The translations under genes were made by a program, and so were the position numbers. A stretch of 64,000 nucleotides of DNA. Origin: Castellaniella sp. S9 (GTDB taxonomy: Bacteria; Pseudomonadota; Gammaproteobacteria; Burkholderiales; Burkholderiaceae_B). Numbering within the stretch: the stretch's first letter is position 1; each line of letters starts with the position of its first letter. The stretch lies in assembly GCF_027257175.1 (NCBI RefSeq), contig NZ_JAPFGD010000002.1:186001-250000 (forward strand), given 5' to 3'. The notes under the pieces were generated by a model. It had not been told where the DNA came from and searched no databases. It saw only the letters and a program-made list of their open reading frames with translations. Positions 7,070 to 43,321 of this stretch are shown in pieces.

Positions 7070-7094
7070 TCACCCGCTCCACTTCAACTTTCCA
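7070..7094. repeat. Left 25-bp direct repeat (att-like, tRNA-Gly 3'-end-like)
   Basis: A 25-bp sequence starting TCACCCGCTCCACTTC and ending TTTCCA that recurs perfectly at 24363-24387 in the same orientation. CACCCGCTCCA, preceded here by TTTCCT, resembles the T-stem/acceptor 3' end and CCA of a tRNA-Gly gene, a known target of ICE and island integrases. No complete tRNA is present. The broken integrase starts 226 bp inside, the usual attL-int arrangement. Confidence 0.65.
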
Positions 7095-7319
7095 TGGTGT
7101 TCCAAGGACGTCCATGGCGTGTTTCAAGTCATTGTCACGGTTCGGTTTTTCCAGAAAATCCGTTCCAGTGACGTCCAGCGAAATCCACTGACGGCCGGCC
7201 CAAACTGGTACAAAAAGTGGCCCAAACAATGCGCGAACTTCCCCTGCCGCATTGTTGCTGGAGGAGCCGGGAGCCGATGGGAAACATGGCACTCAACTCG
7301 CTTTCAAGGAGTTGGGATC
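7095..7319. other. Spacer between left att-like repeat and integrase remnant
   Basis: No gene seen. This is the expected integrase promoter region. A ribosome-binding-like AAGGAG lies at 7306-7311, 8 nt before the ATG at 7320. Confidence 0.4.
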
Positions 7320-7754
7320 ATGCTTTCAGACCCCATGGCCCGGTAGGCCAAGTCCACCGGCAAGCCATACGCACTGGCCGACTTCGACGGCCTCTATCTC
7401 TACGTTTCCGCCATCGGCACCAAGGCTTGGCACTTCCGCTATTCGTGGTTTGGCAAGCGTGAGCGCATCACCCTCGGCAACTATCCGGCGCTTTCCCTGA
7501 AGGACGCCCGTGCGCTTCGCGATGAAGCCCGCTCGCTGCTCGCCAAGGGCGTCAATCCCTACAGCGAACGTAAGCGCAAGCGGCACGCGATCGTCCTGGC
7601 CGGCGAGCACACCTTCATGGCCGTCTACGAGCAATGGCTGGCCCATCGCCGGCTCTCGCTGGAGGAAGGACGGCAGACCAGCCTGGAACAGATCGGGCGC
7701 GTCTTCAAGAAAGATGTGTTCCCCTCGCTGCGGCACCTGACCATCTACGAGATC
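7320..7754 (+). pseudogene. P4-type tyrosine integrase, N-terminal remnant
   Basis: The ATG at 7320 begins MLSDPMAR, then TAG at 7344-7346 where the family normally has a lysine (MA.KAK.TGK). The frame then continues AKSTGKPYALADFDGLYLYV, an N-terminal integrase domain with RITLGNYPALSLKDAR and EHTFMAVYEQWLAHRR. Only about 140 of the usual 400 or so residues remain. The catalytic domain with its R-H-R-Y residues is gone, replaced in frame by a HipA tail at about 7755. Nonsense mutation plus truncation make it inactive, so the island cannot excise by itself. Confidence 0.8.
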
Positions 7755-8336
7755 ATCCGCGTGGCGCCGGCCCGCGTGGAAGTGATCGGCGGCACGGCGG
7801 TCGCCGTCATCCGGCGTTTCGACCGCACCGATGATGGCGGCCGCATCCCTTACGTGTCGGCCGCGACGATGCTCCAGTCCGGTGGCCGCGACGCGACGCA
7901 TGCCTACACCGAACTGGTGGATGTACTGCTTCAGTCGGGCGCCGATCCGATCGCCGACATCCATGAGTTGTGGCGGCGGCTGGTCTTCAATTTCCTGGTC
8001 TGCAATACCGACGACCACCTGCGCAACACCGGCTTCCTGTACGACGCGCGCCAGCGCGGCTGGCGCCTGTCGCCAGCCTTCGACCTGAACCCGATGCCGG
8101 GCGACCGTCGCGAGAGCAAGACCTGGCTGACCGAGGACACCGGCGTCATCGACAGCCGTGACATGCTGATGGCCGCCGCGTCGTATTTCAGGCTGGATGC
8201 TGCGCAAGCGCAGGCGATCTGGAGCGAAGTGGCCCAGGCCGTGGCGGGCTGGCGCGCAGTGGCCCGGGGATTGGGCATGTGCGGCACCGACCTGCTGGAT
8301 TTCGAGCCGGCGTTCGTCGAATCGACCACGCCTTGA
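7755..8336 (+). pseudogene. HipA-type kinase, C-terminal fragment
   Basis: Continues in frame from the integrase remnant. About 190 residues match the C-terminal lobe of HipA-family serine/threonine kinases, toxins of HipBA modules. NTDDHLRNTGFL holds the catalytic-loop aspartate and asparagine, and SPAFDLNPMP is the metal-binding segment. The N-terminal lobe and the HipB antitoxin gene are missing, so no active kinase is expected. An internal ATG at 7617 could still allow a 239-residue chimera to be made. It converges on the minus-strand Jet genes, 21 bp apart. Confidence 0.75.
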
Positions 8337-8357: not shown

Positions 8358-9563
8358 CTACGGCAGAGAATCGTCCTGGACTTTTTTGATCAACGCCGCG
8401 CATAGCCAGCGATAGCCGATGCGTTCCTGCTCCAGCCGCAGTTGTGGCCGGATTCGATCATTACGCAAGTCGTCGTAGAGAGCGGCTTCCTCATCGACCA
8501 GTCGGGACAAGGGCAACGTATGGCGTTTGTCGAGGGGCTCCTCACCCCATTGAAGTTCGTGGGCCATCAGGGTGGAGCGGTCCATGAGGAACGAAGCGGC
8601 TAGCGGGAAATACTTGCGCAGGCTGTCCAGAATGGCAAAGCCATGGGTGTCGATATCTCCCCAATAGTGCAGAGAGGCGCGATGCAGCCAGTCTGCTCGG
8701 GCAAGCGCCCCCCAGCCATAGCCGGCACCGAACACGACGATGGCACTGGATACCGGCGGGAAAGCCAGGAAGTTCACCTCGTTTTCGGTGATGAAGACAC
8801 GCTGCGCAGGCAGGGCGAGCGTGGCGAAGCTGTCCGCATCCAGGGTGATGTCGGTCAGTCCCGTGCAGCCCGGAAGCTGGGGCAGCTGCGCATCGAGCAA
8901 GCGCAGGCGGATGCGAACGGGCTTGTCGCGAAAGCCGTAGCGACGGGCGAATCCTGCGACTCCGGTGGCATCGTGGCCGATGGCTTCGGCGGGCAAGGCC
9001 AGGTCCAGCCATTGGCCTAATGTTGCGCGATGCGCCTCGATGAACTTGCTGTCCACGCCCGGCGCGTCGACCTGCCGAAGATAGACGCCGGGGCGCGGAT
9101 GGGTTTGCACCCAGGCCACTACGGCCAGCAGGCGCGGCCAGTGTTCGGCCAGTGCCAAGGTCTGCAACGGTGATCTGTGCAGCCACGGCAGCAGTGCGGG
9201 TTGCGCTTCGGCAGTTTGCTGCCAGAGCGCCTGGAACCGGTGGGCATCTCCGGTCTTGCCGATCATCGCCAGTGTGTCTTCCAGCGTATCGATCCAGAGC
9301 GTGTCCGGCAGGCGCTGCCGGCCCTGCACCCGGTGCGTCCATTCGCGCCATTCAATGCGCACGCGTGGCATGGCGCTGATGTCGCGCACCCAGCCGCGCA
9401 CGGCATCGAAACGGTTGCTGAGATCGACGGCGGACGGTGACTTCAGCGACAGCCGCAATGGCCAGCGCAGCGTGCCGTCGCCGACCACGGCACGCAGCAA
9501 CTCGCCGCGCTGCCACAGCCGTTCGACCTGCGCACGAAGGTCGGCGGGCTGGCTCCATGTCAT
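8358..9563 (-). CDS. jetD: Wadjet defence system nuclease subunit JetD
   Basis: A 401-residue protein of the DUF3322/DUF2220 type that forms JetD of type I Wadjet, the SMC-like system that cleaves small circular plasmids. The N-terminal domain covers about 1-190. The C-terminal topoisomerase-VI-like TOPRIM domain carries E260 in VFITENEVNFL and the DxD pair D303/D305 in HYWGDIDTHGF, the metal-binding residues. The length is normal and nothing is broken. The gene overlaps the end of the jetC remnant by 4 nt (ATGA), the usual coupling in jet operons. JetA, JetB and most of JetC are missing here, so by itself it should not act as a defence system. Confidence 0.85.
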   Translation of the reverse strand: MTWSQPADLRAQVERLWQRGELLRAVVGDGTLRWPLRLSLKSPSAVDLSNRFDAVRGWVRDISAMPRVRIEWREWTHRVQGRQRLPDTLWIDTLEDTLAMIGKTGDAHRFQALWQQTAEAQPALLPWLHRSPLQTLALAEHWPRLLAVVAWVQTHPRPGVYLRQVDAPGVDSKFIEAHRATLGQWLDLALPAEAIGHDATGVAGFARRYGFRDKPVRIRLRLLDAQLPQLPGCTGLTDITLDADSFATLALPAQRVFITENEVNFLAFPPVSSAIVVFGAGYGWGALARADWLHRASLHYWGDIDTHGFAILDSLRKYFPLAASFLMDRSTLMAHELQWGEEPLDKRHTLPLSRLVDEEAALYDDLRNDRIRPQLRLEQERIGYRWLCAALIKKVQDDSLP

Positions 9564-10504
9564 GCAGCGCCTCCCGTGGCGGCAGCCTTCTGTGCCCGGT
9601 ATTCCTCAATGCTCAGGCTGCGCAGCCGCGACTCACGGCCGCCTTCGTTGTGCACGAAGCCGACGCTGGAAACATACGGCTCGATGATGTGGATCTTCTG
9701 CAGCGGCGTAATGATCAGCAGTTGCAGGTTGAGCTGGCGGAACAGTTCCAGCCCATACTGGGCCGATTCATCCGAGCCGCGCCCGAAGGCTTCGTCGATC
9801 ACGACAAAACGGAATGAGCGCGAGCGCACCGCCCCCCATTCCAGGCCGAACTGGTAGGCCAGGCTGGCGGCCAGCACGGTATAGGCCAGCTTCTCCTTCT
9901 GCCCGCCGGATTTGCCGCCGGAGTCGGAGTAGTGTTCGTGTTCGGTATCGTCCTCGCGCCGGCGCTCGCTGGCGGAAAACAGGAAGCCGTTGCGCACGTC
10001 GGTCACCTTCTGCATCCAGCGCCGGTCGATCTCGGTCAGTCCCTCACGCCCCCGGAAGCGGTCGATGATGGCCTTGACCTGAAGGAACTTGGCTTCGGAA
10101 TACTGTTCGTCTACCGAGCCGCTCAGCGCGTCTTCGGTGCAGGCACGCAGGTCCTGAAGGAAGTCGCGGATCTCCGCATCGGGGCTGGGTTGCGCCAGCA
10201 ACCGGATGTAGCGTCCGGGGTTGTAGTCGATCACCTGCAAGGATTGGTTGATGACATCGACCCGTTCCTTGATCGTTTCCCGCTCGCGCGCGAGCTGGGC
10301 ATTGAAGTTGGCGATCTCGTTGATGGTGTTGACGTTGAGCAGTTCCTTGAAACGCGCTTCGAAGCGCGGCAGGTCGTCGCGCTGCAAATCGCTCATCAAG
10401 CGCTCGAATTCGGGCAGCGCGGCCAGGCTGACGTCGATCTCGGCGGTCTCGGCCTTGAAGGCCTCCTTGAAGCCGCGCATGGCGTTGATGATGCGTTCGG
10501 TCAG
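9560..10504 (-). pseudogene. jetC: JetC (SMC-like ATPase of Wadjet), C-terminal remnant
   Basis: About 315 residues equal to the C-terminal third of JetC. There is a coiled-coil stretch (ERLMSDLQRDDLPRF onward), then the ABC signature SGGQKEKLAY and Walker B FRFVVIDEAFGRGSDE, ending with the H/D-loop region. Full-length JetC is about 1,100 residues; the Walker A half and the hinge are gone. The open frame enters from an IS110-type transposase start (10505-10594) through a TAG at 10544-10546, with a GTG just after it at 10543. The ATPase cannot be functional. It is translationally linked to jetD. Confidence 0.8.
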
Positions 10505-28559: not shown

Positions 28560-29645
28560 TTACGACCGCGCCATCAGCGCAGCCTCGACGGCCATGCCCA
28601 CGTCCGTGGTGTTCGCTTTGCCGCCCAGGTCCGGCGTGGTGGTTTCCCCCTTGCCCAGTACATCCTCTATCGCGCCCACGATGGCGTCGTGTGCCGCCGT
28701 GTGCCGGGCATCGCCGTTGCCCAGGAAATCCAGCATCATGGCGCCGGACCAGATCATGGCGATGGGATTGGCGATGTTCCGGCCGTAGATGTCGGGGGCC
28801 GAGCCGTGCACGGGCTCGAACAGCGACGGGAACTTGCGCTCCGGATTCAAGTTGGCCGACGGCGCGATGCCGATGGTGCCCGCGCATGCCGGCCCCAGGT
28901 CGGACAGGATGTCGCCAAACAGGTTGGAGGCCACCACGACGTCGAAGCGCTGCGGGTTCAGTACGAAATGCGCCGACAGGATATCGATATGGTATTTGTC
29001 CCAGCGCACGTCCGGGTACTGGGGGGCGATCTGTTCCACGCGCTTGTCCCAGTAGGGCATGCTGATGGAAATGCCGTTGGACTTGGTCGCGGAGGTCAGG
29101 TGCTTTTTAGGCCGGCTGCGGGCAAATTCGAATGCGTACTTCAGGATGCGGTCCACGCCTGTGCGGGTGAACACCGCCTCCTGTAGCGCGAACTCGCGCT
29201 CCGATCCTTCGAACATCACGCCGCCCACGGAGGAGTATTCTCCTTCGGAGTTCTCGCGCACCACATAGAAGTCGATGTCCCCGGGCTGCCGGCCGGCCAG
29301 CGGGCAGGGGACGCCCTTGATCAGGCGCACGGGCCGCAGGTTGACGTATTCGTCGAAACCCCTGCGAAACTGGAGGAGGGAACCCCACAGCGAGATATGG
29401 TCCGGTACGGTTTCGGGCCAGCCGACGGCGCCGAAGTAGATCGCATCGAAGCCTTGCAGCTGTTCGAACCAGTCCGAGGGCATCATCCGCCCGTGCTTGG
29501 CGTAGTACCCGCAGTGAGCCCAGTCGAACGCTTGCAGGGACAGCTGGATGTCGAATTTCTCGGCCGCCGCCTTCAACACTCGTAGCCCTTCAGGCATTAC
29601 TTCCTTGCCGATGCCATCGCCGGAAATCACTGCAATCTTGTGCAT
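28560..29645 (-). CDS. ttuC: Tartrate dehydrogenase / D-malate dehydrogenase (decarboxylating)
   Basis: A 361-residue isocitrate/isopropylmalate-dehydrogenase-family enzyme. It begins MHKIAVISGDGIGKEVMPEG, has YFGAVGWPETVPDHISLWG, and an arginine cluster (FRRGFDEYVNLRPVR). ENSEGEYSSVGG is the segment distinguishing tartrate/D-malate from isopropylmalate enzymes. Metal ligands are supplied by the NLFGDILSDLGP region, and the end has FEPVHGSAPDIYG. It uses NAD+ to oxidise L-tartrate or D-malate to oxaloglycolate or pyruvate plus CO2. The ATG at 29645 fits the family N-terminus. A LysR gene is divergent across 98 bp, the usual ttuA-ttuC arrangement. Confidence 0.88.
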   Translation of the reverse strand: MHKIAVISGDGIGKEVMPEGLRVLKAAAEKFDIQLSLQAFDWAHCGYYAKHGRMMPSDWFEQLQGFDAIYFGAVGWPETVPDHISLWGSLLQFRRGFDEYVNLRPVRLIKGVPCPLAGRQPGDIDFYVVRENSEGEYSSVGGVMFEGSEREFALQEAVFTRTGVDRILKYAFEFARSRPKKHLTSATKSNGISISMPYWDKRVEQIAPQYPDVRWDKYHIDILSAHFVLNPQRFDVVVASNLFGDILSDLGPACAGTIGIAPSANLNPERKFPSLFEPVHGSAPDIYGRNIANPIAMIWSGAMMLDFLGNGDARHTAAHDAIVGAIEDVLGKGETTTPDLGGKANTTDVGMAVEAALMARS

Positions 29646-29743
29646 CTTGCCCTTCTGTACTGTTGTTTTGAATATCCCCGCGATGATACTATCCAGCGCA
29701 AAGAACATAATTGGCGGATTCGTTAAATCACAAGACACATATC

Positions 29744-31657: not shown

Positions 31658-32665
31658 TTATTCGACCGCCTGGATCTTGTTGTACAGATCGGCAAGCAGC
31701 CCGCCCTCGAAGGTATTGGGCACGTCTTTCACCTTTTCGCGGAAGGCGGCCTTGTCGGGCTGCACCACGGTCATGCCTCCGGCCTTGAGTTCGGCCAGCA
31801 GCTCGGTTTCGCTGTCCAGCACCAGTTGATCCTGATACACGCCCGCATCGCGTACCGCCGTCTTGATCAGGTCCAGCTGCTCGGGTGACAAGCGGCCGTA
31901 CAGATCGTCGCTCATGCCGACGATCACATTGGAGACCAGATGGTCGGTCAGCGACAGATACTTGTTGACCAGATGCACGCCGGCACCCTTCATGGTGGCC
32001 AGCGGATTTTCCTGCGCGTCCACCACATGGGTCTGCAAGGCCGTGAACAAGTCCTTGAAATCGACGGGCGTGGGCGTTGCGCCCATCGCGCGCCAGTACG
32101 CCTCAAAGATGGGAACGGGGACCACGCGCAGCTTCATCCCCTCCAAGTCGGCGGGCGTCTTGACCGGCTTGTTGGACGTCAGTTGGCGTGTGCCGTAATA
32201 CCAGGACGAACTGATGATGTGGATACCGGTTTTTTCCAGCAGGGCGTCGGCCAGCTCGTCGCCGACTGGTCCTTCCAACGCCTTGCGCATGTGGGCGGGG
32301 TCGCGGAATGCGTACAGCATGCCCAAGACGTTGGCCTGGGGCAGCACGTTGCCGTAGGTGGAGCCGGTGATCGCCGCCATGTCGAGCGTGCCGATCTGCA
32401 TGCCTTCTATCATTTGCTGCTCATTGCCCAGCTGGCCGGCGGGGTAGTCCTGCACTTTGATCTTGCCGCCGGACCGTTCCTCCACAAGCTTGGCAAAGCG
32501 CTTCACGCCCAGGTCCAGCGGCGTGCCCACGGCAATATTCTGGCCGATGCGTAGGGTCATGGTTTGTTGTGCCCAGGCGCTGCCGCCGGCAAGCAATGTC
32601 GTGGCGAGCATGGCGGTGATGGCCGCCTTGGCGCTGCTTTTCATGGATGATCGAATGGATAGCAT
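31658..32665 (-). CDS. TRAP transporter substrate-binding protein (DctP type), system 2
   Basis: A 335-residue periplasmic binding protein with a Sec signal peptide cleaved near GSAWAQQ (about 30-33). The mature part has the DctP signature: NIAVGTPLDLGVKRFAKLVEE and AVPV..RYW region GMKLRVVPVPIFEAYWRAMG. The arginine in KLRVVPVP would bind the substrate carboxylate. AAGGAGG precedes the ATG. It follows the dctQ-dctM pair (order Q-M-P) and precedes the epimerase gene. The ligand is probably an organic or sugar acid. Confidence 0.9.
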   Translation of the reverse strand: MLSIRSSMKSSAKAAITAMLATTLLAGGSAWAQQTMTLRIGQNIAVGTPLDLGVKRFAKLVEERSGGKIKVQDYPAGQLGNEQQMIEGMQIGTLDMAAITGSTYGNVLPQANVLGMLYAFRDPAHMRKALEGPVGDELADALLEKTGIHIISSSWYYGTRQLTSNKPVKTPADLEGMKLRVVPVPIFEAYWRAMGATPTPVDFKDLFTALQTHVVDAQENPLATMKGAGVHLVNKYLSLTDHLVSNVIVGMSDDLYGRLSPEQLDLIKTAVRDAGVYQDQLVLDSETELLAELKAGGMTVVQPDKAAFREKVKDVPNTFEGGLLADLYNKIQAVE

Positions 32666-32686
32666 GGTGTTCCTCCTTGTAGTGGT

Positions 32687-33958
32687 CTAATTGGAATAAA
32701 CGAACTGGGGCAGCCAGGTGATGGTCTGCGGAAACACAATGATCAACAGCATGGTGACGACCAGCGGTATCAGGAACGGCCATACTGCTACGATCACCTT
32801 TTCCAGCCTGATGCCCGACACCTGGCTGCCCACGTACAGGCAAAGGCCGACCGGCGGAGTCACCAGGCCGATGCCCAGCATGTACACCATCATCACCCCG
32901 ATATAGACCGGATCCATGCCGGCCGATATCAGTGCGACGCCCAGTACCGGAGTCAGCAGAATGATGGCGGCGGCCACTTCCATGAAGCACCCCACGATCA
33001 GCAGCAGTACGGCGACGGCAAGCATGATCATCAGCGGGTCCTGGAAGGACGCCATCAGCAGCTCGGACAGGCCGCCGGCAACCTGCGAGCGGGAAATCGC
33101 ATATCCCAGCGGCGCCGCGAAGCCGATGATCAGCATGATGGCGCCCGACAGGGTCGCCGTGCTCATGAGCGCTTCCAGCACCTTTGCCCAGGTCAGCTCG
33201 CGGTAGATCAGGCCGGCGACGATCAGCGTGTACACGGTCGCCAGGATGGCGGCTTCCGTGGGCGTGGCCAGCCCGGAGAACATGGCGCCGAGCAGTACGA
33301 CCGGCGTCAGCAAGGACCATATTCCTTCCCGGAAGGTGCGCCAGAAAGGCACTTGCGGCGCCGCCTTGACCTTTGTCTTGCGGCGCCAGAACAGGAAGGC
33401 GAACATCAGCATGATCATCAGGCCCGTCAGGATGCCCGGTATGACGCCGCCCAGGAAAAGCAGGCCGATGGGCACGTTGGCGATGCTGCCGAAGATGACC
33501 ATGTTGATGCTGGGCGGAATAATGGGGCCGATGGTGGCGGTGGTGGTGATGACGCCGATGCTCAGGTCGTCCGGGTAGTGGCTGTCCCGCATCGCCTTCA
33601 TGCCGATCTTGCCGAGGCTGGCCAGGTCGGCGACTGCCGAGCCCGACATGCCGGCGAAGATCATGCCGGCCACCACGTTGGTATGGCCCAGCCCGCCGGG
33701 GATACGGCCCACGCAAGCCAGTGCGAACGCGAATATCCGGCGTGTGATGCCTCCGCAGTTCATCAGCTCGCCCGCCAGAATGAAGAACGGGATGGCGATC
33801 AGGGGGATGTTGCCCAACTGGCCGATGAATTGTTGCGGAAAAACCAGCAGGTTGGCGTTGGTCGCCAGAAAATAGCCCAGCGCCGATGCCGCGATGGCGA
33901 AGGCGATCGGCGCGCCCAGGAGCATGGCTGCCAGCAGTACGATGGATGAAGTGATCAT
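32687..33958 (-). CDS. TRAP transporter large permease (DctM type), system 2
   Basis: A 423-residue inner-membrane protein with about 12 transmembrane helices, the DctM length. It contains GMSGSAVADLASLGKIGM and GPIIPPSINMVIFG, conserved DctM segments, and the late VTPPVGLCLYVG. It moves the organic acid with Na+ in partnership with DctQ. Its start overlaps the dctQ stop by 4 nt (ATGA), and dctP follows 21 bp after its stop. Confidence 0.9.
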   Translation of the reverse strand: MITSSIVLLAAMLLGAPIAFAIAASALGYFLATNANLLVFPQQFIGQLGNIPLIAIPFFILAGELMNCGGITRRIFAFALACVGRIPGGLGHTNVVAGMIFAGMSGSAVADLASLGKIGMKAMRDSHYPDDLSIGVITTTATIGPIIPPSINMVIFGSIANVPIGLLFLGGVIPGILTGLMIMLMFAFLFWRRKTKVKAAPQVPFWRTFREGIWSLLTPVVLLGAMFSGLATPTEAAILATVYTLIVAGLIYRELTWAKVLEALMSTATLSGAIMLIIGFAAPLGYAISRSQVAGGLSELLMASFQDPLMIMLAVAVLLLIVGCFMEVAAAIILLTPVLGVALISAGMDPVYIGVMMVYMLGIGLVTPPVGLCLYVGSQVSGIRLEKVIVAVWPFLIPLVVTMLLIIVFPQTITWLPQFVYSN

Positions 33959-34506
33959 GCGCTGGTCTCCTGCTCCGGCGTGCCGGGCGGCACGATGACC
34001 GTTTCAATGAAAACGAAGCGGCGCTTGAACACCTGCAGCTGGATCAGGCGCAAGCCCATGAGCACCGCGAGCGCCGGCGCAGCCGCATAGGCCCAGGCCC
34101 AGGTGAAGGGCAGGGTGGCGAAGGAAAAAGAAGTGCGTGACATCAGGCTCCACCCATACCACCCCAGCACCGCCAGCACCGCTAGGACCAGCAGCAGCAC
34201 CAGGTAGTCGAATCCCTTGCGCAGGCCCAGGGGAAGGCTGTCGGCCACAGCGCCCAGCCGCACCAGGGCCAGGCGTTTCGCCGCGCCCGTCGCGCCCAGG
34301 ACGGAACACCAGACGAACAAGAACTGCGAGAGTTCCTCGGGCCAGCTGAGCGGCGACCCGAGCAGAGTGCGCAGGAAAACCTGGGCCACCATCACCGCCC
34401 CGATGATGCACAGCAGGAGCATCGCCACCAGCTCTTCGGCGTTGTCCGCGAGAATGCGCCCCCAGGAGACACGAGCGCCATGCGAATGGATGGAGGAACC
34501 GATCAT
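33955..34506 (-). CDS. TRAP transporter small permease (DctQ type), system 2
   Basis: A 183-residue membrane protein with four hydrophobic segments: EELVAMLLLCIIGAVMVAQVFL, FLFVWCSVLGA, YLVLLLVLAVLAVLGW and AYAAAPALAVLMGLRLI. The PLSWPEELSQFLFVW motif is diagnostic of DctQ. It overlaps dctM by 4 nt and starts 2 nt after the racemase-GAF stop, so all are in one transcript. Confidence 0.88.
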   Translation of the reverse strand: MIGSSIHSHGARVSWGRILADNAEELVAMLLLCIIGAVMVAQVFLRTLLGSPLSWPEELSQFLFVWCSVLGATGAAKRLALVRLGAVADSLPLGLRKGFDYLVLLLVLAVLAVLGWYGWSLMSRTSFSFATLPFTWAWAYAAAPALAVLMGLRLIQLQVFKRRFVFIETVIVPPGTPEQETSA

Positions 34507-34508
34507 CG

Positions 34509-35720
34509 TCAGACCCAGCCCGATCGTTCAAGGAGGCTGCGGGCCTTGTCCATGGCCGCGCGCATTGCCTCGATGTCGCGATCGGACCATGGCCGCGTGT
34601 CGGGGAGATGGTGGACGGAGATCCAGCCGACCAGTTGATTGCGCCATACCAGAGGTCCGAGAACCTGGGCCTTGACGCCATAGACGCCCATCAGCGCCTT
34701 GGGCGGCGGAACCTGGGCATTGATGCAATCCTCCTGAATGAGCAGGTCGCGATGCCGGTCCAGCCACTGGACGGTCGCCAGGCTGCGTTGGTTCAGGGAC
34801 GAGTCCAGCCTCAGCGAGGCCACGCCCGGGGCGGTGGCTTCGGCATAGACGTCGTCGACGCCGATGTTTAATTCCGGGATGTCCAGCCGAATGGTGGTGC
34901 GGCTGGCGGACGTGGCCACCAGAAGCTCGGCCAGTATGGTATCGAGCTCGGCGAGAACCTCGTGGTCGCGCAGCAGCTGGCCCCATCCGTGCAGCGGATT
35001 GCTGATGCCGGCCATTTGCAGGGCCTGCCACAAGGTGACCGCTATGCTGTCGAAAATCGGCTTGCCCAGTTCGTGTTCCATGTCGTCCAAGACGGCGGCG
35101 GCGGCCAGATTGGTGCAGCCGACGACGATGCACTCGGCATCGGGCGAGTCCGCATCGCGCAGCAGCTGCTTGATGGTATCGAACGACGTGCCGCCAATGA
35201 CCTGGTTCTTGGTGATGTCCAGGCGCGCCTCCTTGACCACTTCGAAGCCGGCGCTCTCGTAGGTGCGCGCCATCTGGCGCGCCGGCGCCTGGACGTACGG
35301 CGTCGCCAAGGCGAACTTCTGGATGCCGTACTGCGCAAGCACTTCCAACTGGGCCAGGGAAGAGGTCGATGCCGGCACCCCCACGGTCCCGGTGATGGCG
35401 GCGCAGATGTCCTTGTCAGCCTCGAAGCCTTTCCCGGACCATGCGCCGGAGGTTCCGTTCCACAGGATCACATCCACTGCCGCATCGCCCAGCAGGCTGG
35501 CCGCCTCGGCCATTTTCGAGGTTTCGAACTGGTTGACGTCGTTCGCATCGAGCGTCAGCGTCCGGACCTGGACGCGCGAGAAATGGGTGGATACGCGGTC
35601 GCTGATCTGATGCGTCATCAGTTGGGTCAGCGGTTCCAGTGCCGTGTTGGACGAGGGCGTAATGAATCCGATTTTCTTGAGGTCTTTCAGGCCGCCGGCC
35701 TTCTTCAATCGTGCGTTCAT
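34509..35720 (-). CDS. Asp/Glu-racemase / maleate-isomerase-like domain fused to a C-terminal GAF domain
   Basis: A 403-residue two-domain protein. Residues about 14-255 match the arylmalonate-decarboxylase/maleate-isomerase branch of the Asp/Glu racemase superfamily (GFITPSSNTALEPL; C202 in IVVGCTNLAAAAVL). The first catalytic cysteine of two-cysteine racemases is absent: the loop reads ILWNGTSGAW. So, like arylmalonate decarboxylase, it has one catalytic Cys. Residues about 260-400 resemble a GAF domain (SLATVQWLDRHRDLLIQED, VWRNQLVGWISVHHL), perhaps a ligand sensor. It lies between an SDR and dctQ in the TRAP operon. Isomerase, decarboxylase or regulatory roles are all possible. Confidence 0.75.
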   Translation of the reverse strand: MNARLKKAGGLKDLKKIGFITPSSNTALEPLTQLMTHQISDRVSTHFSRVQVRTLTLDANDVNQFETSKMAEAASLLGDAAVDVILWNGTSGAWSGKGFEADKDICAAITGTVGVPASTSSLAQLEVLAQYGIQKFALATPYVQAPARQMARTYESAGFEVVKEARLDITKNQVIGGTSFDTIKQLLRDADSPDAECIVVGCTNLAAAAVLDDMEHELGKPIFDSIAVTLWQALQMAGISNPLHGWGQLLRDHEVLAELDTILAELLVATSASRTTIRLDIPELNIGVDDVYAEATAPGVASLRLDSSLNQRSLATVQWLDRHRDLLIQEDCINAQVPPPKALMGVYGVKAQVLGPLVWRNQLVGWISVHHLPDTRPWSDRDIEAMRAAMDKARSLLERSGWV

Positions 35721-35758: not shown

Positions 35759-36517
35759 CTATGGCAGGATCCAGCCGCCGTCCACGACCAGGGTATGGCC
35801 TGTGATGTAGGATGCGGCGTCGCTCGCCATGAACACAAAGGCATGCGCCATGTCTTCGGTTTGTCCGAAACGCCCCAGGGGGATGCGTTTCAGCGATTCG
35901 GCGTAATGGGCGGGGTCCTGCAGCAGATGCTGATTGAGGGGTGTCAGCGTTCGTCCGGGGGCCACGCAGTTGACGCGCACGCCCAGCGGGCCCCATTCCA
36001 GCGCCGCCGTCTTCACAAACTGGGAAATGCCCGCCTTGGTGGCGGCGTATACGGATCGGAACTCGGCGCCGTTGTACGCCAACTGTGAGCCGGTATGGAC
36101 AATGGCGCCGCGCTTGCGAGCCGACATTTTCCGGCCTACGAGGCGGCTAAGCGCGATCGAGCCGGCCAGATTGACGGAAATCACGCGAGTGAGGTCCGTC
36201 CATTTCAAATCGGACAGGGGCTCGTACAGCAGGACGCCCGCATTGTTGATCAGTATGTCCACCTCGCCGATGGCCTCGTCCAGGGCCTCGATGGACTCGA
36301 GCGCGCCTTGGTCGAACACAATGGGCCGCAGCACGCCGGGCCGCTGCGCGGCAAACGCGGCAAGCGCCCCTTCATCCTTGTCGGCCGCGAACACCGTCGC
36401 GCCCAGATCGGCGAACAGTCGGGCGGTCGCCTGCCCGATGCCGCTGGCCGCGCCTGTGACGCAGACCGTCCGGCCGGTGAAATCGAACAAGCTCGAAAAT
36501 GCATGGGATGCGGTCAT
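35759..36517 (-). CDS. Short-chain dehydrogenase/reductase in TRAP operon
   Basis: A 252-residue classical SDR with TGAASGIGQATARLF cofactor motif, NNAG (ILINNAGVLLYEP), serine in IVHTGSQLA, and YAATK as the YxxxK pair. The C-terminal YITGHTLVVDGGWILP is typical. The ATG at 36517 is chosen for the MTASHAFSS lead; upstream codons lie in the preceding dctM end. It lies between the two TRAP sets and probably oxidises the imported hydroxy-acid. Confidence 0.88.
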   Translation of the reverse strand: MTASHAFSSLFDFTGRTVCVTGAASGIGQATARLFADLGATVFAADKDEGALAAFAAQRPGVLRPIVFDQGALESIEALDEAIGEVDILINNAGVLLYEPLSDLKWTDLTRVISVNLAGSIALSRLVGRKMSARKRGAIVHTGSQLAYNGAEFRSVYAATKAGISQFVKTAALEWGPLGVRVNCVAPGRTLTPLNQHLLQDPAHYAESLKRIPLGRFGQTEDMAHAFVFMASDAASYITGHTLVVDGGWILP

Positions 36518-36539
36518 GTGATTTCCGTTTGCGTTTCCA

Positions 36540-37820
36540 TCAATAGCCCAGCAGGCGCGGCAGGAACAGGATGATGTCCGGGAACAGCGTGAACAGGAAC
36601 AGCAGCGCATACTGGAGCACGATGAAGGGTGTGGCTTCCCGGATGATTTCGGTGACCTTGATCCGCCAGATGCCCGAGGTGACGATGAGCAGGATGCCCA
36701 CCGGCGGCGTGATGCCCCCGATGGTGATGTTCATGACCACCAGGAAGCCAAAATACACCGGATCGATGCCATACATGGCTGCGATCGGCGCAATGATGGG
36801 CACCAGCATCAAGTAGGCCGCGTTGGCCTCCATCACCATGCCCACCAATACCAGCATCAGCATCACCAGAAAGGTGAACAGCAGGGGATCGGTCGTCACT
36901 GTGGTGAGCCACTCCGCGACTTGCGGCGCCACCATTTCCGCGGTCAACAGGTAGGTCACCTGGGACGAGAAGGCGATCAGGGCGCCGACGATGGCGGTGA
37001 TGATGGCGGCGTTCAGCAGGCAGGGCAGCAGGTCTGACAGACGCAGCTTCCTGGTTACGAAAAAGCCGATCGCCAGTGCATACGCGACGGCGATGGCGGC
37101 GCCTTCGGTGGCCGTGAACACCCCGCCCACGATGCCGCCGATGACCAGTACCGGCATCAGGAAGACGATCAGCGATCGGCGCAGCTCGCGCACGACGCGT
37201 GCCGTGCTGAACGCCTCGCCGCTGACCGGATAGCCGCGCCGGCGGGCAATGACGGCGCACAGCACCATGGTGCCGAGGCCCAGGAAAATACCCGGAACGA
37301 TGCCCGCGACGAAGAGATAGCCCACGGACACGTCGCGCGCCACCACGGCGTAGACGATCATGCCGATGCTGGGTGGGATGATCGGCCCGAGGTTGGAGGC
37401 GGATGCCACGAGAGCCGCGCCAAACCCCTTGCTGTACGACTTGCCGAGGCTGGGGCCGAGCGTGGAGCCCAGGGCCGTGGCGTCGGCCACCGAGCTGCCG
37501 GACACCGACGACAGGCCCATGGCGGCGCCGATCGTGACCAGACCCAGCCCGCCCGTGACTCGGCCCACGGCGGCATCGGCGAGCTCGATGAGCCTTTCCA
37601 TGATGCCGCCCCGGACCATCAGCTGGCCGGCCAGCATGAAAAGGGGGATGGCCATCAGCGGGAACGAGTCCAGCGCATAGACCATCTTGCCGGCCAGTTG
37701 CTCCATGGGAAAGCCGCCCAGCAGGACCCCGCCCAGGCCGGCCCAGCCCAGCGCGAAGGCCAGCGGCATGCCGAGGACGGCCAGCACCGAGAAAATCCCG
37801 AGCATGGTCAAAGAGATCAT
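36540..37820 (-). CDS. TRAP transporter large permease (DctM type), system 1
   Basis: A 426-residue DctM protein with about 12 membrane helices. It shows SSVSGSSVADATALGSTLGP, GPIIPPSIGMIVYAVVA and GGITPPVGILLIVTSG. It overlaps dctQ by 4 nt at its start. It is the second of two large permeases in the same minus-strand operon; this one has P-Q-M order, the other Q-M-P, so they are not a simple tandem duplication. Confidence 0.9.
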   Translation of the reverse strand: MISLTMLGIFSVLAVLGMPLAFALGWAGLGGVLLGGFPMEQLAGKMVYALDSFPLMAIPLFMLAGQLMVRGGIMERLIELADAAVGRVTGGLGLVTIGAAMGLSSVSGSSVADATALGSTLGPSLGKSYSKGFGAALVASASNLGPIIPPSIGMIVYAVVARDVSVGYLFVAGIVPGIFLGLGTMVLCAVIARRRGYPVSGEAFSTARVVRELRRSLIVFLMPVLVIGGIVGGVFTATEGAAIAVAYALAIGFFVTRKLRLSDLLPCLLNAAIITAIVGALIAFSSQVTYLLTAEMVAPQVAEWLTTVTTDPLLFTFLVMLMLVLVGMVMEANAAYLMLVPIIAPIAAMYGIDPVYFGFLVVMNITIGGITPPVGILLIVTSGIWRIKVTEIIREATPFIVLQYALLFLFTLFPDIILFLPRLLGY

Positions 37821-38326
37821 GATTCGCTCCAGTGCTCGCTGGGCGGTTCGCCGGTGATCGCTATGCGTCCCACGTGCAGGCAGGTGTGGACCTGGCCGAT
37901 CACCAGGCTTGCATAGAACACGCCCACGCTCAGTGGAATGCCGGGCATGAGCTGGTCCCAGGTGTCGGCCGTGAGCAGGGCGGCGTAGTAGGCGATGATG
38001 GCCGACAGGATCAGGATCAGCACCGCATTCAGGGACACCACGATGCGCTTGGCGGATGCGTTGAACCGGTCGACGAGCAGCTCTATGCCGACGTGCGCGT
38101 TATAGCGGATGCCCAGCGGTATCGCGAACATGACCGCCCAGATGAAGCACACCCGCGGCACATCCCAGCCCCAGGCCAGTGAATCATTCAGGGCATAGCG
38201 AAAAAAGACTTGCAACAGCAGCACGGCCGCCAGCACGGCCATGGACGCCGTGACGATGGCTGCTGCCAGTCGATCGAGCGCGCCGAGAACGGCATCGTAG
38301 CAGTTCAGGAAGGCTTTTTTTGTCAT
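37817..38326 (-). CDS. TRAP transporter small permease (DctQ type), system 1
   Basis: A 169-residue membrane protein with four hydrophobic stretches and the DctQ segment YALNDSLAWGWDVPRVCFIW. It is paired with the overlapping dctM at 36540-37820 and lies 71 bp after dctP. Confidence 0.88.
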   Translation of the reverse strand: MTKKAFLNCYDAVLGALDRLAAAIVTASMAVLAAVLLLQVFFRYALNDSLAWGWDVPRVCFIWAVMFAIPLGIRYNAHVGIELLVDRFNASAKRIVVSLNAVLILILSAIIAYYAALLTADTWDQLMPGIPLSVGVFYASLVIGQVHTCLHVGRIAITGEPPSEHWSES

Positions 38327-38397: not shown

Positions 38398-39414
38398 TCA
38401 GGCCGCCTCGCACGTCTGGATGCCCTGCTCGACCAGGTCCATCGCTTCGTCGCCCAGCCGCTTGCGCATCTCGGCATAGACCGAGCGCGTCGCCTCGCGA
38501 AACTTGGCCAGATCGTCCTTGGAAAGCTCGTGGTATTCCATGCCTTCCTTGATCAATTGATCGCGGGCGACCTTGTTCTCGCGCATGGATATGGCGCGCT
38601 GTTCGGCCGTCGCCTTGGCCGCGGCTTCGCGCACGGCCTTTTGCTGATCGGCGCTGAGCTTGTCGAAGGCGCTTTTGTTCACCATGTAAGCGGCCCAGTC
38701 GTAGAAGTGCCCGGAATTGGACAGGTACTTCTGGACTTCCGAGAATTTGCGCACGACCATGTTGTCGTAGGGGTTCTCCTGACCGTCCACCACGCCTTGC
38801 TGCATGGCCTGGTAAAGCTCTTTGATGTCGATGGGGGTGGGATTGGCGCCCAGGGCGCGGAACGTCAGCTGCCAAGCCTCGCCCGGCAAAGTCCGTATTT
38901 TCAGGCCTTCCATGTCGGCCACCGACGTGATCGGACGTTTGTTGTTGGTGATGTGGCGGGCGCCCACCTGCGCCCAGCCCAGCACCAGTACGCCTTTTTC
39001 CGCCATCTTGCCTTCCAGGAACTCGCCCAGGCCGCTCTCCATCTGGCAGATGGCCTGCTCCGGCGAGGTGGCGGCAAACGGCAGGATCGCTGCACCGAGT
39101 TCAGGCACCAGCTTGTCGTAGAAGCCGATGGAGCCCCACGCCATCTGGATCTGGTTGGTCCGCAGCTGGTCCACCTGTTCCAGCGCGCCGCCCAGCGTAT
39201 TGTTCGGGAACAGGTCCACGCGGATGGTGTCGTTGGAAAGCGCGGCGGCCTCGGACTTGAAGACCTTGGCCCCCGCGGTCGTGGAATGGCCCTCCGGGTA
39301 TGAGCCGCTGGCGCGCCAGTGCGCCTTATCGTCCGCCGCGTGGGCCACATTGCCCGCCAGCATCAGCGTTGCTGCGCACCAGGCGATTCGTTTTAATGGG
39401 GAACGGTGTGTCAT
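38398..39414 (-). CDS. TRAP transporter substrate-binding protein (DctP type), system 1
   Basis: A 338-residue periplasmic solute-binding protein. The signal peptide ends near NVAHAADD (about 22-26). The mature part has DctP features: KVFKSEAAALSNDTIRVDLF and MEGLKIRTLPGEAWQLTFRALG, with the substrate-binding arginine in KIRTLP. The ATG at 39414 follows AGGAGG. It is the first gene of the long operon ending at the epimerase. A palindromic motif at 39529-39539 lies 115 bp upstream. Confidence 0.9.
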   Translation of the reverse strand: MTHRSPLKRIAWCAATLMLAGNVAHAADDKAHWRASGSYPEGHSTTAGAKVFKSEAAALSNDTIRVDLFPNNTLGGALEQVDQLRTNQIQMAWGSIGFYDKLVPELGAAILPFAATSPEQAICQMESGLGEFLEGKMAEKGVLVLGWAQVGARHITNNKRPITSVADMEGLKIRTLPGEAWQLTFRALGANPTPIDIKELYQAMQQGVVDGQENPYDNMVVRKFSEVQKYLSNSGHFYDWAAYMVNKSAFDKLSADQQKAVREAAAKATAEQRAISMRENKVARDQLIKEGMEYHELSKDDLAKFREATRSVYAEMRKRLGDEAMDLVEQGIQTCEAA

Positions 39415-39528
39415 TGTCTTCCTCCTGTGATGTGTGCCATTCCATGGAGTGTCTGGAATCGTGCGGCCGTTCAACGCCTGGGGTCAGTTCAAAAACGGCG
39501 GCTTTCTTATATTGAATCCATAGTAAAG

Positions 39529-39637: not shown

Positions 39638-40678
39638 CTAGCGTGTCATGAATGCCTGCAGGGAGTGCTGCAGGGCTTCCTTGGAGGGCAGGTCGCCGAT
39701 CAGCACCAGCCGCGAGCGATGGTCGTCGTCGGGCCAACGCGGCAGGTGGGTGGGCGGGTGCATCAGGTGCTGGACGCCATGCACGACTGTCGGCAAGGAC
39801 GAGCCGCTGATGTTCAGGATGCCCTTCATGCGCAGGATGCGGGCTCCGTGGCAATGCAGGAGCATGCTCAGCCATACCCCGAACGCGGCCCAGTCCAGCG
39901 GCTCTTCGAAGGTCAGCGCAACGGAGGTCACGCGTGTCGCGTGCGCTGGCCCCAGGCGCTTGCCGTCCGGCCCGAACAGGCCGTCACCGCCGGCCGAAGG
40001 CCGGCCGGCAAACCAACGCTTCGCCTCTCTCGTGCCGGATGAGGCCTGGACGTCCTCCTCGACCAGGATGTCGGCTTCCTGCGCGGTGCCGTCCGATGTC
40101 GTGACAGTGGCCGAGGGATTCATGTCCGAGAGGGCGGCGTGCAGATCGTCGACAGCCCGTGTGTCGGCCAGATCGGTCTTGGTGATGACCAGGCGGTCCG
40201 CCACCGCCACCTGCCGCACCGATTCCGGGTGTGCCCGCAGCTGAGCGAGCCCGTGCAGCGCATCTACGGTCGTCACGATGGTGGCCACGCGGAAGTGGAA
40301 GTGCAGCTGGGGATGGCCGATGATGGTATTGAGTACGGGGGCGGGGTCGGCCAGCCCAGTGGTTTCGACCACGACACGATCAAAGGCCGGCACGTCGCCG
40401 CGATTGCGCTTTGCGTTCAGGTCCAGCAGCGCGTCCGCCAGGTCGCTGCGGATGCCACAGCAGATGCAGCCGTTGCTCAAGACGACCGTCTCGTGGTCCA
40501 CGATGTCGATCAGGTCGTGATCCAGCGCGATTTCGCCCAGCTCATTGATCAGCACGGCGCAGTTCGCAAAGGCATCACTGCTGAGCAGGCGCTTCAACAG
40601 CGTGGTCTTGCCGCTGCCCAGGAAGCCCGTCAGCACGTTGAGCGGGATTTTTACGGCGGCCTGCGATGCGTCGTTCAT
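39638..40678 (-). CDS. G3E-family GTPase (CobW/ZNG1-like metallochaperone)
   Basis: A 346-residue GTPase of the CobW/YjiA/ZNG1 group. The P-loop is GFLGSGKTT (18-26), the metal motif is C71-I-C73-C74 (GCICCG), VVETTGLADPAPV follows, and TKTDL is the base-recognition motif. The C-terminal CobW_C domain covers about 230-335. Members hand Zn2+ or other metal to client enzymes. The start overlaps the previous gene's stop by 4 nt (ATGA), and a deacetylase-fold metallo-hydrolase lies two genes upstream. A role in loading that enzyme's metal is inferred. Confidence 0.88.
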   Translation of the reverse strand: MNDASQAAVKIPLNVLTGFLGSGKTTLLKRLLSSDAFANCAVLINELGEIALDHDLIDIVDHETVVLSNGCICCGIRSDLADALLDLNAKRNRGDVPAFDRVVVETTGLADPAPVLNTIIGHPQLHFHFRVATIVTTVDALHGLAQLRAHPESVRQVAVADRLVITKTDLADTRAVDDLHAALSDMNPSATVTTSDGTAQEADILVEEDVQASSGTREAKRWFAGRPSAGGDGLFGPDGKRLGPAHATRVTSVALTFEEPLDWAAFGVWLSMLLHCHGARILRMKGILNISGSSLPTVVHGVQHLMHPPTHLPRWPDDDHRSRLVLIGDLPSKEALQHSLQAFMTR

Positions 40679-40992
40679 GGATGTCGCCGCAGACGCTCGA
40701 TGACGGCGCCCGACAACGGATCGGCCCGGCCACCCGTCAGCCGCTCGACGGCCGGCCATAGCTGGCCCAGGTTGTCCACGAGCTCGGACTTGCCGGTCAA
40801 GGTGCTGAGCAGGTATTTGCTGCCTTGCCAATCGGATACCGAGCACGAAAATGCGCCCAGCACCCGGTTCAGGTATTTGACGCGGCGCGACCTTTCGGTG
40901 CGGCGGATGTGCGCCAGCTCGTCGGCGTCCGGCCGCGGCAAGAGGTCGCTCCAGTGATCATCGGCGCCCAGGATGCCGCACAGTCCGCACAT
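40675..40992 (-). CDS. Small Cys-motif protein of unknown function (MCGLCG N-terminus)
   Basis: A 105-residue protein I cannot assign to a named family. It begins MCGLCGILGADDHWSDLL; the two cysteines form a C-x-x-C motif directly at the N-terminus, with Cys2 placed like the nucleophile of class-II glutamine amidotransferases (MCG...G). It is far too short for that fold and has no further amidotransferase motifs. The rest is basic and helical (RRTERSRRVKYLNRVLG), with one more Cys (FSCSVSDW). It is translationally coupled to the G3E GTPase downstream and 32 bp after the deacetylase-fold gene. A metal-binding adaptor is possible. Confidence 0.65.
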   Translation of the reverse strand: MCGLCGILGADDHWSDLLPRPDADELAHIRRTERSRRVKYLNRVLGAFSCSVSDWQGSKYLLSTLTGKSELVDNLGQLWPAVERLTGGRADPLSGAVIERLRRHP

Positions 40993-41024
40993 GTCTCCTC
41001 CTCATGCCGCGCCGACGGGGCGGG

Positions 41025-41909
41025 TCAACCCTGAGTCCATGGCGAGCGCCGGTCGAAGTCCGATGCCATGTCGTCCATGGTCACGAACGTGACCCCCGCA
41101 TGGCCGCTGATGTATTCGAACAGCCGTTCGAGCATGAGCAGCACCTGCGGGCGGCCGGACACATCGGGGTGGATGGTGATGGGGAACACCGCGTAATCGT
41201 ATTCCCGATACACCCAGTCGAACTGGTCGCGCCACATCTGCTCGATGTCGCGCGGATTGACGAAGCCATGGCTGTTGGGCGATTTTTTGATGAACATCAT
41301 GGGGGGCAGGTCGTCCAGGTACCAGTTGGCCGGGATTTCGATCAAGGGGGTTTCCTTGCCCCGGATCAGGGGCTTCATCCATTCGCTTGCGTCCCTGGTG
41401 AAGTCGATCTTGGTCCAGGAATCGCCCACACGCACGCGATACGGCTGGAAGTCATGATGCATCAGGCTGTGGTCGTACTTGATGCCTTTCTTCAGCAGCA
41501 GCTCGTTGGTGATCGTACTGAACTCCCACCACGGCGCGACATAGCCGGTGGGACCCTTGCCGCAAAGCCGGGTGATGAGCTCGATGCTCTTGTCCATGAC
41601 GTCTTCCTCTTGTTTGGCCGTCATGGCGATCGGGTTCTCGTGCGAATAACCGTGCATGCCGATCTCGTGGCCGGCATCCACCACCGCCCTGATCTGGTCC
41701 GGGAAGGTCTCGATGGAATGACCCGGAACGAACCAGGTCGTCTGGATGCCGAACCGGTCGAATAATTTGAGCAGGCGCGGCACGCCCACCTCGCCGGCAA
41801 ACAGGCCGCGCGAGATATCGTCCGGCGAATCTTCGCCGCCGTAGGAGCCCAGCCAGCCCGCCACGGCGTCCACGTCCACGCCGAACCCGCACAGAATTTC
41901 TTTAGCCAT
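41025..41909 (-). CDS. Polysaccharide-deacetylase-fold hydrolase (HpPgdA / cyclic-imide-hydrolase clade)
   Basis: A 294-residue NodB-like metallohydrolase. It starts [21 protein letters not shown]12 or D14, H86 and H90 (MHGYSHENP) form the metal site at the positions known from Helicobacter pylori PgdA. The rest also follows that clade ([35 protein letters not shown]). Close relatives in pseudomonads are cyclic imide hydrolases (imidases), not peptidoglycan enzymes. There is no signal peptide, and an amidase lies upstream. Ring opening of cyclic imides in the cytoplasm is therefore the more likely role. Confidence 0.82.
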
Positions 41910-41935
41910 TGTGTCGATCTCCTTGGTTTGGGCAA

Positions 41936-43321
41936 TCAGCCTGTATACGGCATGACGCAAGCGCCGAGTTGCAGGCCTGTATTCAACAAATAATCTTCGC
42001 TGCCCGCTCTCGCGTAGAAGGCGATGCTGGTGGGCATCTGCGCCTGGCCGACCCCGTTGGGCAGCGCCAGGCCGCACATATTGAGCATGTTGGCCCACAT
42101 GGTGTTCCGAATGGTTTTGCCGTTGACACGCGCAAAATAATCGATATCCGCCTGCAAGGGGGCCAGGGGCGGGGCCACATGGGCGATCGTGGGCATGACC
42201 AGCATGGCCCCGTCCAGCGAGGCCCACAAGGACTCGCGCAGGCGCTGCCGCTCTTGCTGCAGGCGCAGCAGGTCATACGCGGACATGGACTTGGCGGCCA
42301 TGATCCGCCTGAATACGAACGGATCAATCTCGGATGCGCGCGGGCCCTCCAGCAGTTCATGATGCCGGCAGTAGGCTTCGGCCGACGCCAGGAAGCCATG
42401 ATTCCGGCCGAGCGACTCGAGCTCGTCCAGCTCGGGCACTTCGCGCCGGACCACGCGCGCGCCCGCTTCCTGTAGCCGCCGCAGCGATTCAACGAAGTTC
42501 CGCTCCACCTCGGGCTCGAGCGCCTCCATGACCGCGGTGTCGGGAGCGACCAGCGTCACCTCGGACAGGGGGACGCTTGCCGTTGCCGCGGTCGGCTGCG
42601 TGGCCAGGCCCCGCATGGCCCGATCCACCAGCAGGCAGTCGGATACGGCGTGGGCCAGCACGCCTATCGTGTCCAGCGTGCGAGACAGGGGAAAGACCCC
42701 ACCGCGGTCGAAGCGCAGCTCGGACGTTTTATATCCGACCACGCCGTTGAATGCCGCCGGCGTACGCACCGAGCCGCCGGTGTCGGTGCCGATGGCGATC
42801 GGCACCAGCCGAGCGCCCACGGCGACGCCCGATCCCGACGAGGAGCCGCCCGGTACGCGCGCGCAATCGCGCGCATGCGGATTCAGCGGCGTGCCGAAAT
42901 GAGGATTCAGGCCAAGTGACGAATAGGCGAACTCGCTGAGATTGGTCTTGCCCAGGCTGACCATCCCGGCCGCCGCCAGATGGGCGACGACCGGGGCGTC
43001 GGCGGATGCCGGCGCGGCATCGCGGTAGATATTGGAGGCGGCGGTGGTGGGTGTGTCCCGGACATCGATCACATCCTTCCAGGCGACCGGCACGCCGTCC
43101 AGGGCACCCAAAGCCTGGCCGCGGCGGTGGCGTTCGGCGCTGGCGGCTGCCTCCCGCCGCGCCCGCTCGAATGTGGTGGTGATGAATACCGTGCGGTCGT
43201 CCCCGGCCTCGATCCGCCTGATGAAGTGCTCTGTGAGTTCGACCGCATCTATTTCTTTGCTGGCGAGCATCTGGCCAAGTGTGGTGGCCGAACACTCGCA
43301 CAGCGCTGTGGCAGGCGACAC
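41936..43321 (-). CDS. Amidase-signature amidase
   Basis: A 461-residue amidase-signature hydrolase. The Ser-cisSer-Lys triad is visible as K82 (VAWKDVID), S160 in the GGSSSGSG stretch and the nucleophile S184 in [16 protein letters not shown]. The length fits single-domain amidases. It is the first gene of the minus-strand set amidase - deacetylase-fold hydrolase - MCGLCG protein - G3E GTPase. Next to an imidase-type enzyme it may hydrolyse the half-amide formed by ring opening, releasing ammonia and a dicarboxylate. Indole-acetamide- or AtzF-like roles are alternatives. Confidence 0.85.

Follow-up and report, generated by a model that had tools for sequence, protein, structure and literature searches.

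A proposed cyclic-imide operon in Castellaniella sp. S9 that includes a small MCxxC protein and a G3E GTPase

The window analysed here is a stretch of 64,000 nucleotides from Castellaniella sp. S9 (contig NZ_JAPFGD010000002.1, positions 186,001 to 250,000; feature coordinates below are those of the window). It carries four adjacent genes on the minus strand, which encode an amidase, a metallohydrolase of the HpPgdA/cyclic-imidase clade, a small protein that begins MCGLCG and belongs to a family here called MCxxC, and a COG0523/G3E GTPase. The core of hydrolase, MCxxC and GTPase is widespread and common to many unrelated bacteria. We propose that the operon serves cytosolic catabolism of a cyclic imide and brings its own metal-insertion pair, a reading to which we give a probability of about 0.55. 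The imide part is well supported by gene context and homology, and metal loading by MCxxC and the GTPase is plausible. The original prediction, which was made from the letters of the window alone, is confirmed in its central observation, and the arrangement extends further than was first noted.

The four reading frames are co-directional and tightly packed, and their core recurs elsewhere, in agreement with the earlier description of a single operon. The amidase (41936..43321, with a GTG start as listed) is separated by 26 nt from the hydrolase (41025..41909), which is followed after 32 nt by the MCGLCG gene (40675..40992). The spacing had been given as 4 to 32 nt; the 32 nt is correct, while the 4 nt is an ATGA overlap between the MCGLCG gene and the GTPase gene (39638..40678) and not a gap. 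The mechanically called GTPase frame begins at 40846, within the MCGLCG gene, but the ATG at 40678 is the likely start, because the cobW match begins at residue 13 of that reading. A pattern scan gave 3 promoter-like sites (1.9 expected) and 8 terminator-like sites (4.4 expected), none of which was used. The four-gene arrangement is far beyond chance, since the same core is present in many Pseudomonadota and in one Bacteroidota genome.

The hydrolase has as its nearest solved structure HpPgdA of Helicobacter pylori (3qbu; 527 bits, E 1.3e-157, residues 1-290 of 294). It scores only 119 bits against 3rxz and 71 bits against PuuE (3cl6), which places it in the HpPgdA clade, as originally suggested. 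All five residues named as metal or catalytic residues in HpPgdA (PMC3084791) are present, namely D12, D14, H86, H90 and H247. Its Pfam family is Polysacc_deac_1 (PF01522), a NodB-type fold. No signal peptide is evident on inspection of the N-terminus (no program was run), which agrees with the first description. The best NCBIfam model is that of PuuE allantoinase (TIGR03212), at 76.6 bits against a cut-off of 424.6, and this identity was rejected. On the strength of its homology, the window hydrolase is proposed to be an imide ring-opener. In two hydrolases of 57-58% identity (L048:5344 and L049:8439, where L and a number denote a fetched locus and G and a number a surveyed genome), His replaces Asp12 (NVHFD), and MCxxC and GTPase still adjoin.

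The MCGLCG protein has 105 residues and belongs to an unnamed family. It has no fitting Pfam or NCBIfam family, and the stray matches among 48 members scatter, with E above 0.04. The CxxC start pointed out in the original prediction is found throughout: 111 of 111 genes start M-C-x-x-C, although the model begins at the motif and the alignment therefore favours a motif at the start. A stop codon lies no more than 5 codons upstream of the methionine in 41 of 120 genes. M1, C2, C5, W14, R31, G67, W79, P92 and L93 are invariant in 48 aligned rows. The AlphaFold2 model has a mean pLDDT of 83, with a confident body and values below 50 for residues 1-6. Foldseek gave no match for it at E 0.001 or below, and its best VIA-align Z score of 4.6 is too low to interpret; both results leave room for a known fold. 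No solved relative was found with the family profile up to E 10, and none of 8 pattern matches in viral contigs is a relative.

The model suggests a small globular protein whose cysteine-bearing N-terminus, predicted with low confidence, may be flexible. We infer a metal-handing role for it, because such a role would fit an N-terminal cysteine pair carried on the loose tail of a small body. Two other identities were considered and rejected. No HypA model is among the Pfam and NCBIfam matches of the 48 members at E 0.1. Class II glutamine amidotransferases begin in a similar way, with MCGI; the MCGLCG protein is only 105 residues long and has no GATase match in Pfam, and was rejected as a fragment of such an enzyme. 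It is worth adding that L023 (G020) carries two identical MCxxC copies, at 8473-8733 and 10230-10490, with repeated pieces of short-chain dehydrogenase/reductase (SDR) genes between them. This duplicate may be an assembly artefact, as the overlapping L017 has an undetermined residue.

The GTPase matches PF02492 (cobW, 151 bits) and PF07683 (CobW_C, 83 bits) and has the motif NGCICC in its translation, and is thus a member of COG0523/G3E. It falls below the NCBIfam equivalog cut-offs (PRK11537, 181 of 361 bits; CobW, 110 of 332; ZigA, 102 of 600). The motif [SN][GA]CxCC, searched as a simple pattern, is kept by the GTPases of 108 of the 118 surveyed loci. Eight genomes with MCxxC have from 4 to 9 cobW-model matches each, some of them weak. 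A maximum-likelihood tree was built from 64 rows, of which 59 are different and three have very long branches. Its 42 MCxxC-linked rows, some of them duplicates, all lie on one side of one branch and the 22 others lie outside it. The support of this branch is 91/98, and the linkage requires one change in 94% of the bootstrap trees. The rows cover neither L223, L224, L230 and L231 (the last being linked) nor the G3E matches that have no locus. The linked branch includes the GTPases of L019, L022 and L025, which are loci without a clade hydrolase. Over 29 loci, the distances of MCxxC rise with hydrolase distances (rho 0.50) and with GTPase distances (rho 0.62), with 0 of 2000 shuffles as high, and those of hydrolase and GTPase correlate less (rho 0.35; 30 of 2000 label shuffles as high); these values include general relatedness. 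The GTPase is proposed, from these comparisons, to be a dedicated partner of the MCxxC protein.

A lack of co-occurrence in other genomes had been named as the result that would undo the original prediction; a neighbourhood survey found the genes together elsewhere. In the window's family, MCxxC is present in 14 of 268 genomes, the window's own included. All 13 of the other family loci have the GTPase, and 10 of the 13 have a hydrolase of at least 70% identity; of the remainder, L022 has a distant relative of the hydrolase (29%) and L019 and L025 have none. More widely, and counting the window's genome each time, the MCxxC profile matches 8 of 399 genomes in the order, 4 of 321 in the class and 10 of 349 in the phylum, and in the phylum of the genome of L134 (Rufibacter) it matches 1 of 148, that genome itself. 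For many genomes only a part of the first-look candidates was scored (for example 12 of 63, or 6 of 12), and weak members may be missed in these counts. The hydrolase profile matches 25 of the 349 Pseudomonadota genomes at E 1e-20, ten of them with more than 500 bits and 15 with no more than 202 bits. The ten are exactly the ten genomes with MCxxC, and the 15 weaker ones have no MCxxC match. If hits fell at random, this coincidence would have a chance of about 1.5e-19; on a count by genus (7 of 185) the figure becomes about 8e-13. These odds ignore shared descent, and four of the ten genomes are of one genus.

A second survey, starting from the hydrolase, took the best 80 of 565 confirmed relatives in GTDB contigs, among which Pseudomonas and Rhizobiales are numerous. 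MCxxC is present in 77 of the 80 loci, and the other three (L102, L118 and L122) end about 2.1 kb past the hydrolase, short of the usual place of MCxxC in the same layout. The GTPase is present in 76 of the 80, with L065 also ending early. Altogether 128 loci were fetched by hydrolase or MCxxC, some of which duplicate each other (L021 and L058 are the same region). They contain 120 MCxxC genes. For 117 of these the next gene downstream is a co-directional GTPase gene, and 116 have a hydrolase of more than 45% identity no further than 7 kb away. The exceptions to the latter are L019, L022, L025 and L046, the last being cut just upstream. One locus, L187, is on an IncF-type plasmid of Klebsiella pneumoniae (NZ_CP147633.1), where amidase, hydrolase, a major facilitator superfamily (MFS) transporter, two SDRs, MCxxC and GTPase stand beside insertion sequences. 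Because of this plasmid site next to insertion sequences, the L187 cluster may be mobile in enterobacteria.

The neighbours of the hydrolase give an indication of what it might do. A hydrolase of more than 45% identity is present in 123 loci, and in 80 of these an amide hydrolase lies no more than 5.5 kb away: an amidase-signature (AS) amidase in 72, an asparaginase in 8 and a nitrilase-type enzyme in 2, with two loci having two types. The window amidase is itself of the AS family, with PF01425 matching at full length (277 bits, residues 28-446) and the motif GGSSSGSG in its translation. It reaches 550 bits with NF004766, slightly below the cut-off of 559, and its closest solved structure is biuret hydrolase 6c62 (E 6e-42). 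In L190, L192, L194 and L195 an asparaginase immediately precedes the hydrolase, and family matches cover three of these four. In L069, L129 and L133 an asparaginase follows the GTPase and a binding protein, in exactly the position of the AS amidase in L079, L082 and L146. In the Rufibacter locus L134, a nitrilase-type gene is 123 nt ahead of the hydrolase. The occurrence of three unrelated families of amide hydrolase in one role beside the hydrolase suggests that its product is an amide. Within the originally proposed set of four, the amidase varies more than hydrolase, MCxxC and GTPase do, as an asparaginase or nitrilase-type enzyme can replace it. At least one SDR gene is found within 6 kb in 80 of the 123 loci, and at least two in 69. 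Genes of the Old Yellow Enzyme (OYE) type are near the hydrolase in only 3 of the 123. L194 has two SDRs together with an OYE-type reductase. L060 has what appear, on reading by eye, to be genes for a three-subunit molybdenum hydroxylase. The transporters of the clusters vary between tripartite ATP-independent periplasmic (TRAP), ABC and MFS types.

On the basis of these observations, the following pathway can be put forward. The TRAP transporter of the window (elsewhere an ABC or MFS transporter) would bring in the substrate, which SDR dehydrogenases may oxidise to the imide. The PgdA-like hydrolase, by its homology, would open the ring to a half-amide, and the amidase would then release ammonia and the dicarboxylate. 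MCxxC and the G3E GTPase would supply the apo-hydrolase with a divalent metal, probably zinc, rather as HypA does together with HypB.

Parts of this scheme have close parallels. In Aspergillus nidulans, the metabolites of knock-outs led to the proposal that HxnM opens the ring of 3-hydroxypiperidine-2,6-dione and that HxnN hydrolyses the resulting amide; an SDR-type enzyme, HxnW, and an OYE-type one, HxnT, act before them (PMC9304392). HxnM is 64% identical to a cyclic imide hydrolase homolog of Pseudomonas putida YZ-26 (cited in PMC9304392). The resemblance is that an HpPgdA-clade imidase works ahead of an amide hydrolase, which in the fungus is HxnN, with FAAH-like catalytic residues. It extends to the SDR genes that recur in the bacterial clusters, and L194 resembles the set HxnT/HxnW/HxnM/HxnN. 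The order of imide, half-amide and diacid that was first suggested is thus consistent with both the neighbouring amide hydrolases and the fungal pathway. The fungal system differs in that 'cobw' occurs 0 times in its companion paper (PMC8478523). For the helper pair, HypA has an N-terminal nickel site and works with HypB (PMC5557546, PMC3287977); the likeness is that a small protein with a metal site at its N-terminus inserts metal together with a partner GTPase, with no implication of nickel for MCxxC. Nha3, the COG0523 activator of an Fe-type nitrile hydratase, is likewise clustered with its client enzyme, but the client is another one and no MCxxC partner is mentioned in the parts of PMC2770081 available. 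No description of MCxxC, or of the set of hydrolase, MCxxC and GTPase, is among the matches listed from the open literature, a scope that takes in neither subscription papers and supplements nor the ten COG0523 subfamilies whose details stand only in an additional file of PMC2770081. The earlier statement that no such system has been described therefore needs dividing: the step from imidase to amidase is known from fungi, and the helper set is undescribed in those listings.

Several observations weigh against imide catabolism with a dedicated metal-insertion pair. Nine loci have no MCxxC, and if the three that are cut (L102, L118 and L122) are set aside, the other six (L190, L193, L194, L197, L198 and L199) have a hydrolase with neither MCxxC nor GTPase in 5-8 kb on each side, or less in L193 where the record ends. 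These six hydrolases keep the metal ligands, and only that of L193 loses the catalytic Asp12, to Gly. In the other direction, four genomes (G119, G103, G204 and the fragmented G416) have MCxxC and GTPase without a clade hydrolase. At E 1e-10 no hydrolase match appears in G119, a 99% complete genome from the same genus as the window, and the other three have only distant matches of no more than 107 bits. The pair in L025 (G103) adjoins a divergent amidohydrolase resembling allantoinase and dihydroorotase, as well as an apparent GntR gene. That in L022 (G204) follows a different, distant protein of the deacetylase fold, and that in L019 (G119; 6886-8240) has no metal hydrolase next to it on its strand. 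Finally, 43 of the 123 loci, some of them cut by contig ends, show no amide hydrolase within 5.5 kb, and 43 show no SDR within 6 kb. The pair thus accompanies the hydrolase very often, but the six hydrolase loci without it imply that it is not required everywhere.

The loci in which hydrolase and pair occur apart are an argument for a different role of the pair within the same catabolism, as a metal or redox sensor, or as a folding or assembly factor for a tetrameric hydrolase. The presence of an ion in HpPgdA produced in E. coli (PMC3084791) points the same way. Such a role is on balance rather unlikely, given that G3E GTPases are linked to metallocentre assembly, with a CXCC motif that is essential in the nitrile hydratase activator (PMC2770081), and that the corresponding motif is so widely kept in the surveyed loci. 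A change of substrate, to a hydantoin, dihydropyrimidine or other ureide ring, is improbable. In 8 of the 123 loci there are dihydropyrimidinase-type genes at distances of 1.3 to 11.9 kb from the hydrolase, and PuuE is the top NCBIfam model, but at 77 bits against 425. A ureide pathway requires a carbamoylase, whereas the recurring partners are amide hydrolases. HpPgdA was also inactive on allantoin (PMC3084791).

The annotation 'polysaccharide deacetylase' suggests that the hydrolase deacetylates a glycan or another acetylated compound, as its PF01522 fold family allows, and further evidence for this comes from H. pylori. Descriptions of HpPgdA (HP0310) make it a peptidoglycan deacetylase, and there are mutant data: its knock-out had more acetylated peptidoglycan and a higher sensitivity to lysozyme (cited in PMC3084791), and release of acetate from acetylated xylan, chitin, chitosan and pNP-acetate has been reported (PMC3688963). 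These results also count against the imide reading of the operon. However, the structure paper (PMC3084791) calls the protein atypical, in that it has a metal site but neither a polysaccharide groove nor a signal peptide, and reports no activity on GlcNAc, chitotriose, N-acetyl polyamines or N-acetyl dipeptides. Together with the lack of an evident signal peptide in the window enzyme and with its recurring neighbours (amide hydrolases, SDRs and transporters), this makes deacetylation of peptidoglycan, another glycan or another acetylated compound very improbable, and it is not favoured here.

The surroundings of HP0310 bear on imide catabolism with metal insertion. HP0312 is a COG0523 member (PMC2770081) and served as the second gene-context anchor in the structure paper (PMC3084791). 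HP0309 (annotated as N-carbamoyl-D-amino acid amidohydrolase), HP0311 (hypothetical) and HP0312 are listed as absent from H. cetorum (PMC3866246). The gene order HP0309-HP0312 resembles that of Rufibacter L134, HP0311 being compared by its annotation, and by analogy suggests a layout similar to that of the operon. Against this, the available part of that absence list (PMC3866246) does not name HP0310 itself, which may persist in H. cetorum without its neighbours. The knock-out and acetate-release results given above weigh against it too. A more far-reaching proposal is possible, though doubtful at present: MCxxC and its GTPase may be a dedicated metal-insertion machine for ring-opening amide hydrolases, in which the small protein moves between unrelated client folds and uses an N-terminal hook that forms once Met1 is removed and consists of Cys2, Cys5 and the free amine. 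HP0309-HP0312 would then be the same cassette, and HP0310, which is regarded as an immune-evasion enzyme, would chiefly be a cytosolic imidase matured by HP0311 and HP0312.

Downstream of the GTPase, also on the minus strand, are genes for a TRAP solute-binding protein DctP (38398..39417; TIGR00787, 212 bits), which is likely to belong to the same functional unit, a small permease DctQ (37817..38326; PF04290) and a large permease DctM (36540..37820; TIGR00786, 370 bits). These are followed by an SDR oxidoreductase (35759..36532; PF13561, 184 bits), proposed to oxidise the substrate before ring opening, and by a protein with a GAF domain that resembles EutA and arylmalonate decarboxylase (34509..35720; PF17645, PF01590). 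The order DctP, DctQ, DctM, SDR and EutA-like recurs in two relatives, L018 and L021, and the EutA-like gene is kept in L076 as well. The operon had been suggested to feed neighbouring TRAP and malate/tartrate genes; this conserved order fits the TRAP part. A tartrate dehydrogenase gene does exist in the window (28563-29678, 543 bits), but no link to the operon was found. The EutA-like protein reads GTSG at the first catalytic position and GCTN at the second, and presumably has one of the two usual catalytic cysteines. Its identification as a maleate isomerase is not favoured, since we take the N-terminal catalytic position, GTSG, to lack its cysteine. A second TRAP set follows on the same strand (31661-34506), with a solute-binding protein at 223 bits to TIGR00787.

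In some other loci, a gene resembling a solute-binding protein comes directly after the GTPase (L146:10363-11571, L187:13168-14382 and similar), and no export signal is evident in 8 N-termini of this group; in L188 it is further from the GTPase. These Rhizobium-type operons also encode another binding protein, which does have an evident export signal, and clusters with an MFS transporter also keep the signal-less one. It may be a cytosolic binding protein.

The ring-opening and amide-hydrolysing steps described here are known chemistry, and what is new among G3E maturation systems is the helper pair of MCxxC and GTPase. COG0523 GTPases are widespread, and to our knowledge few of their client enzymes are known. 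A group of them that is defined by sequence, and is accompanied both by a conserved candidate client and by a small partner from an unnamed family, makes client recognition and metal transfer directly testable. The operon also offers a concrete alternative for HP0310 of H. pylori, whose structure misfits its assigned job, and suggests that many genes annotated as 'polysaccharide deacetylase' may be imidases.

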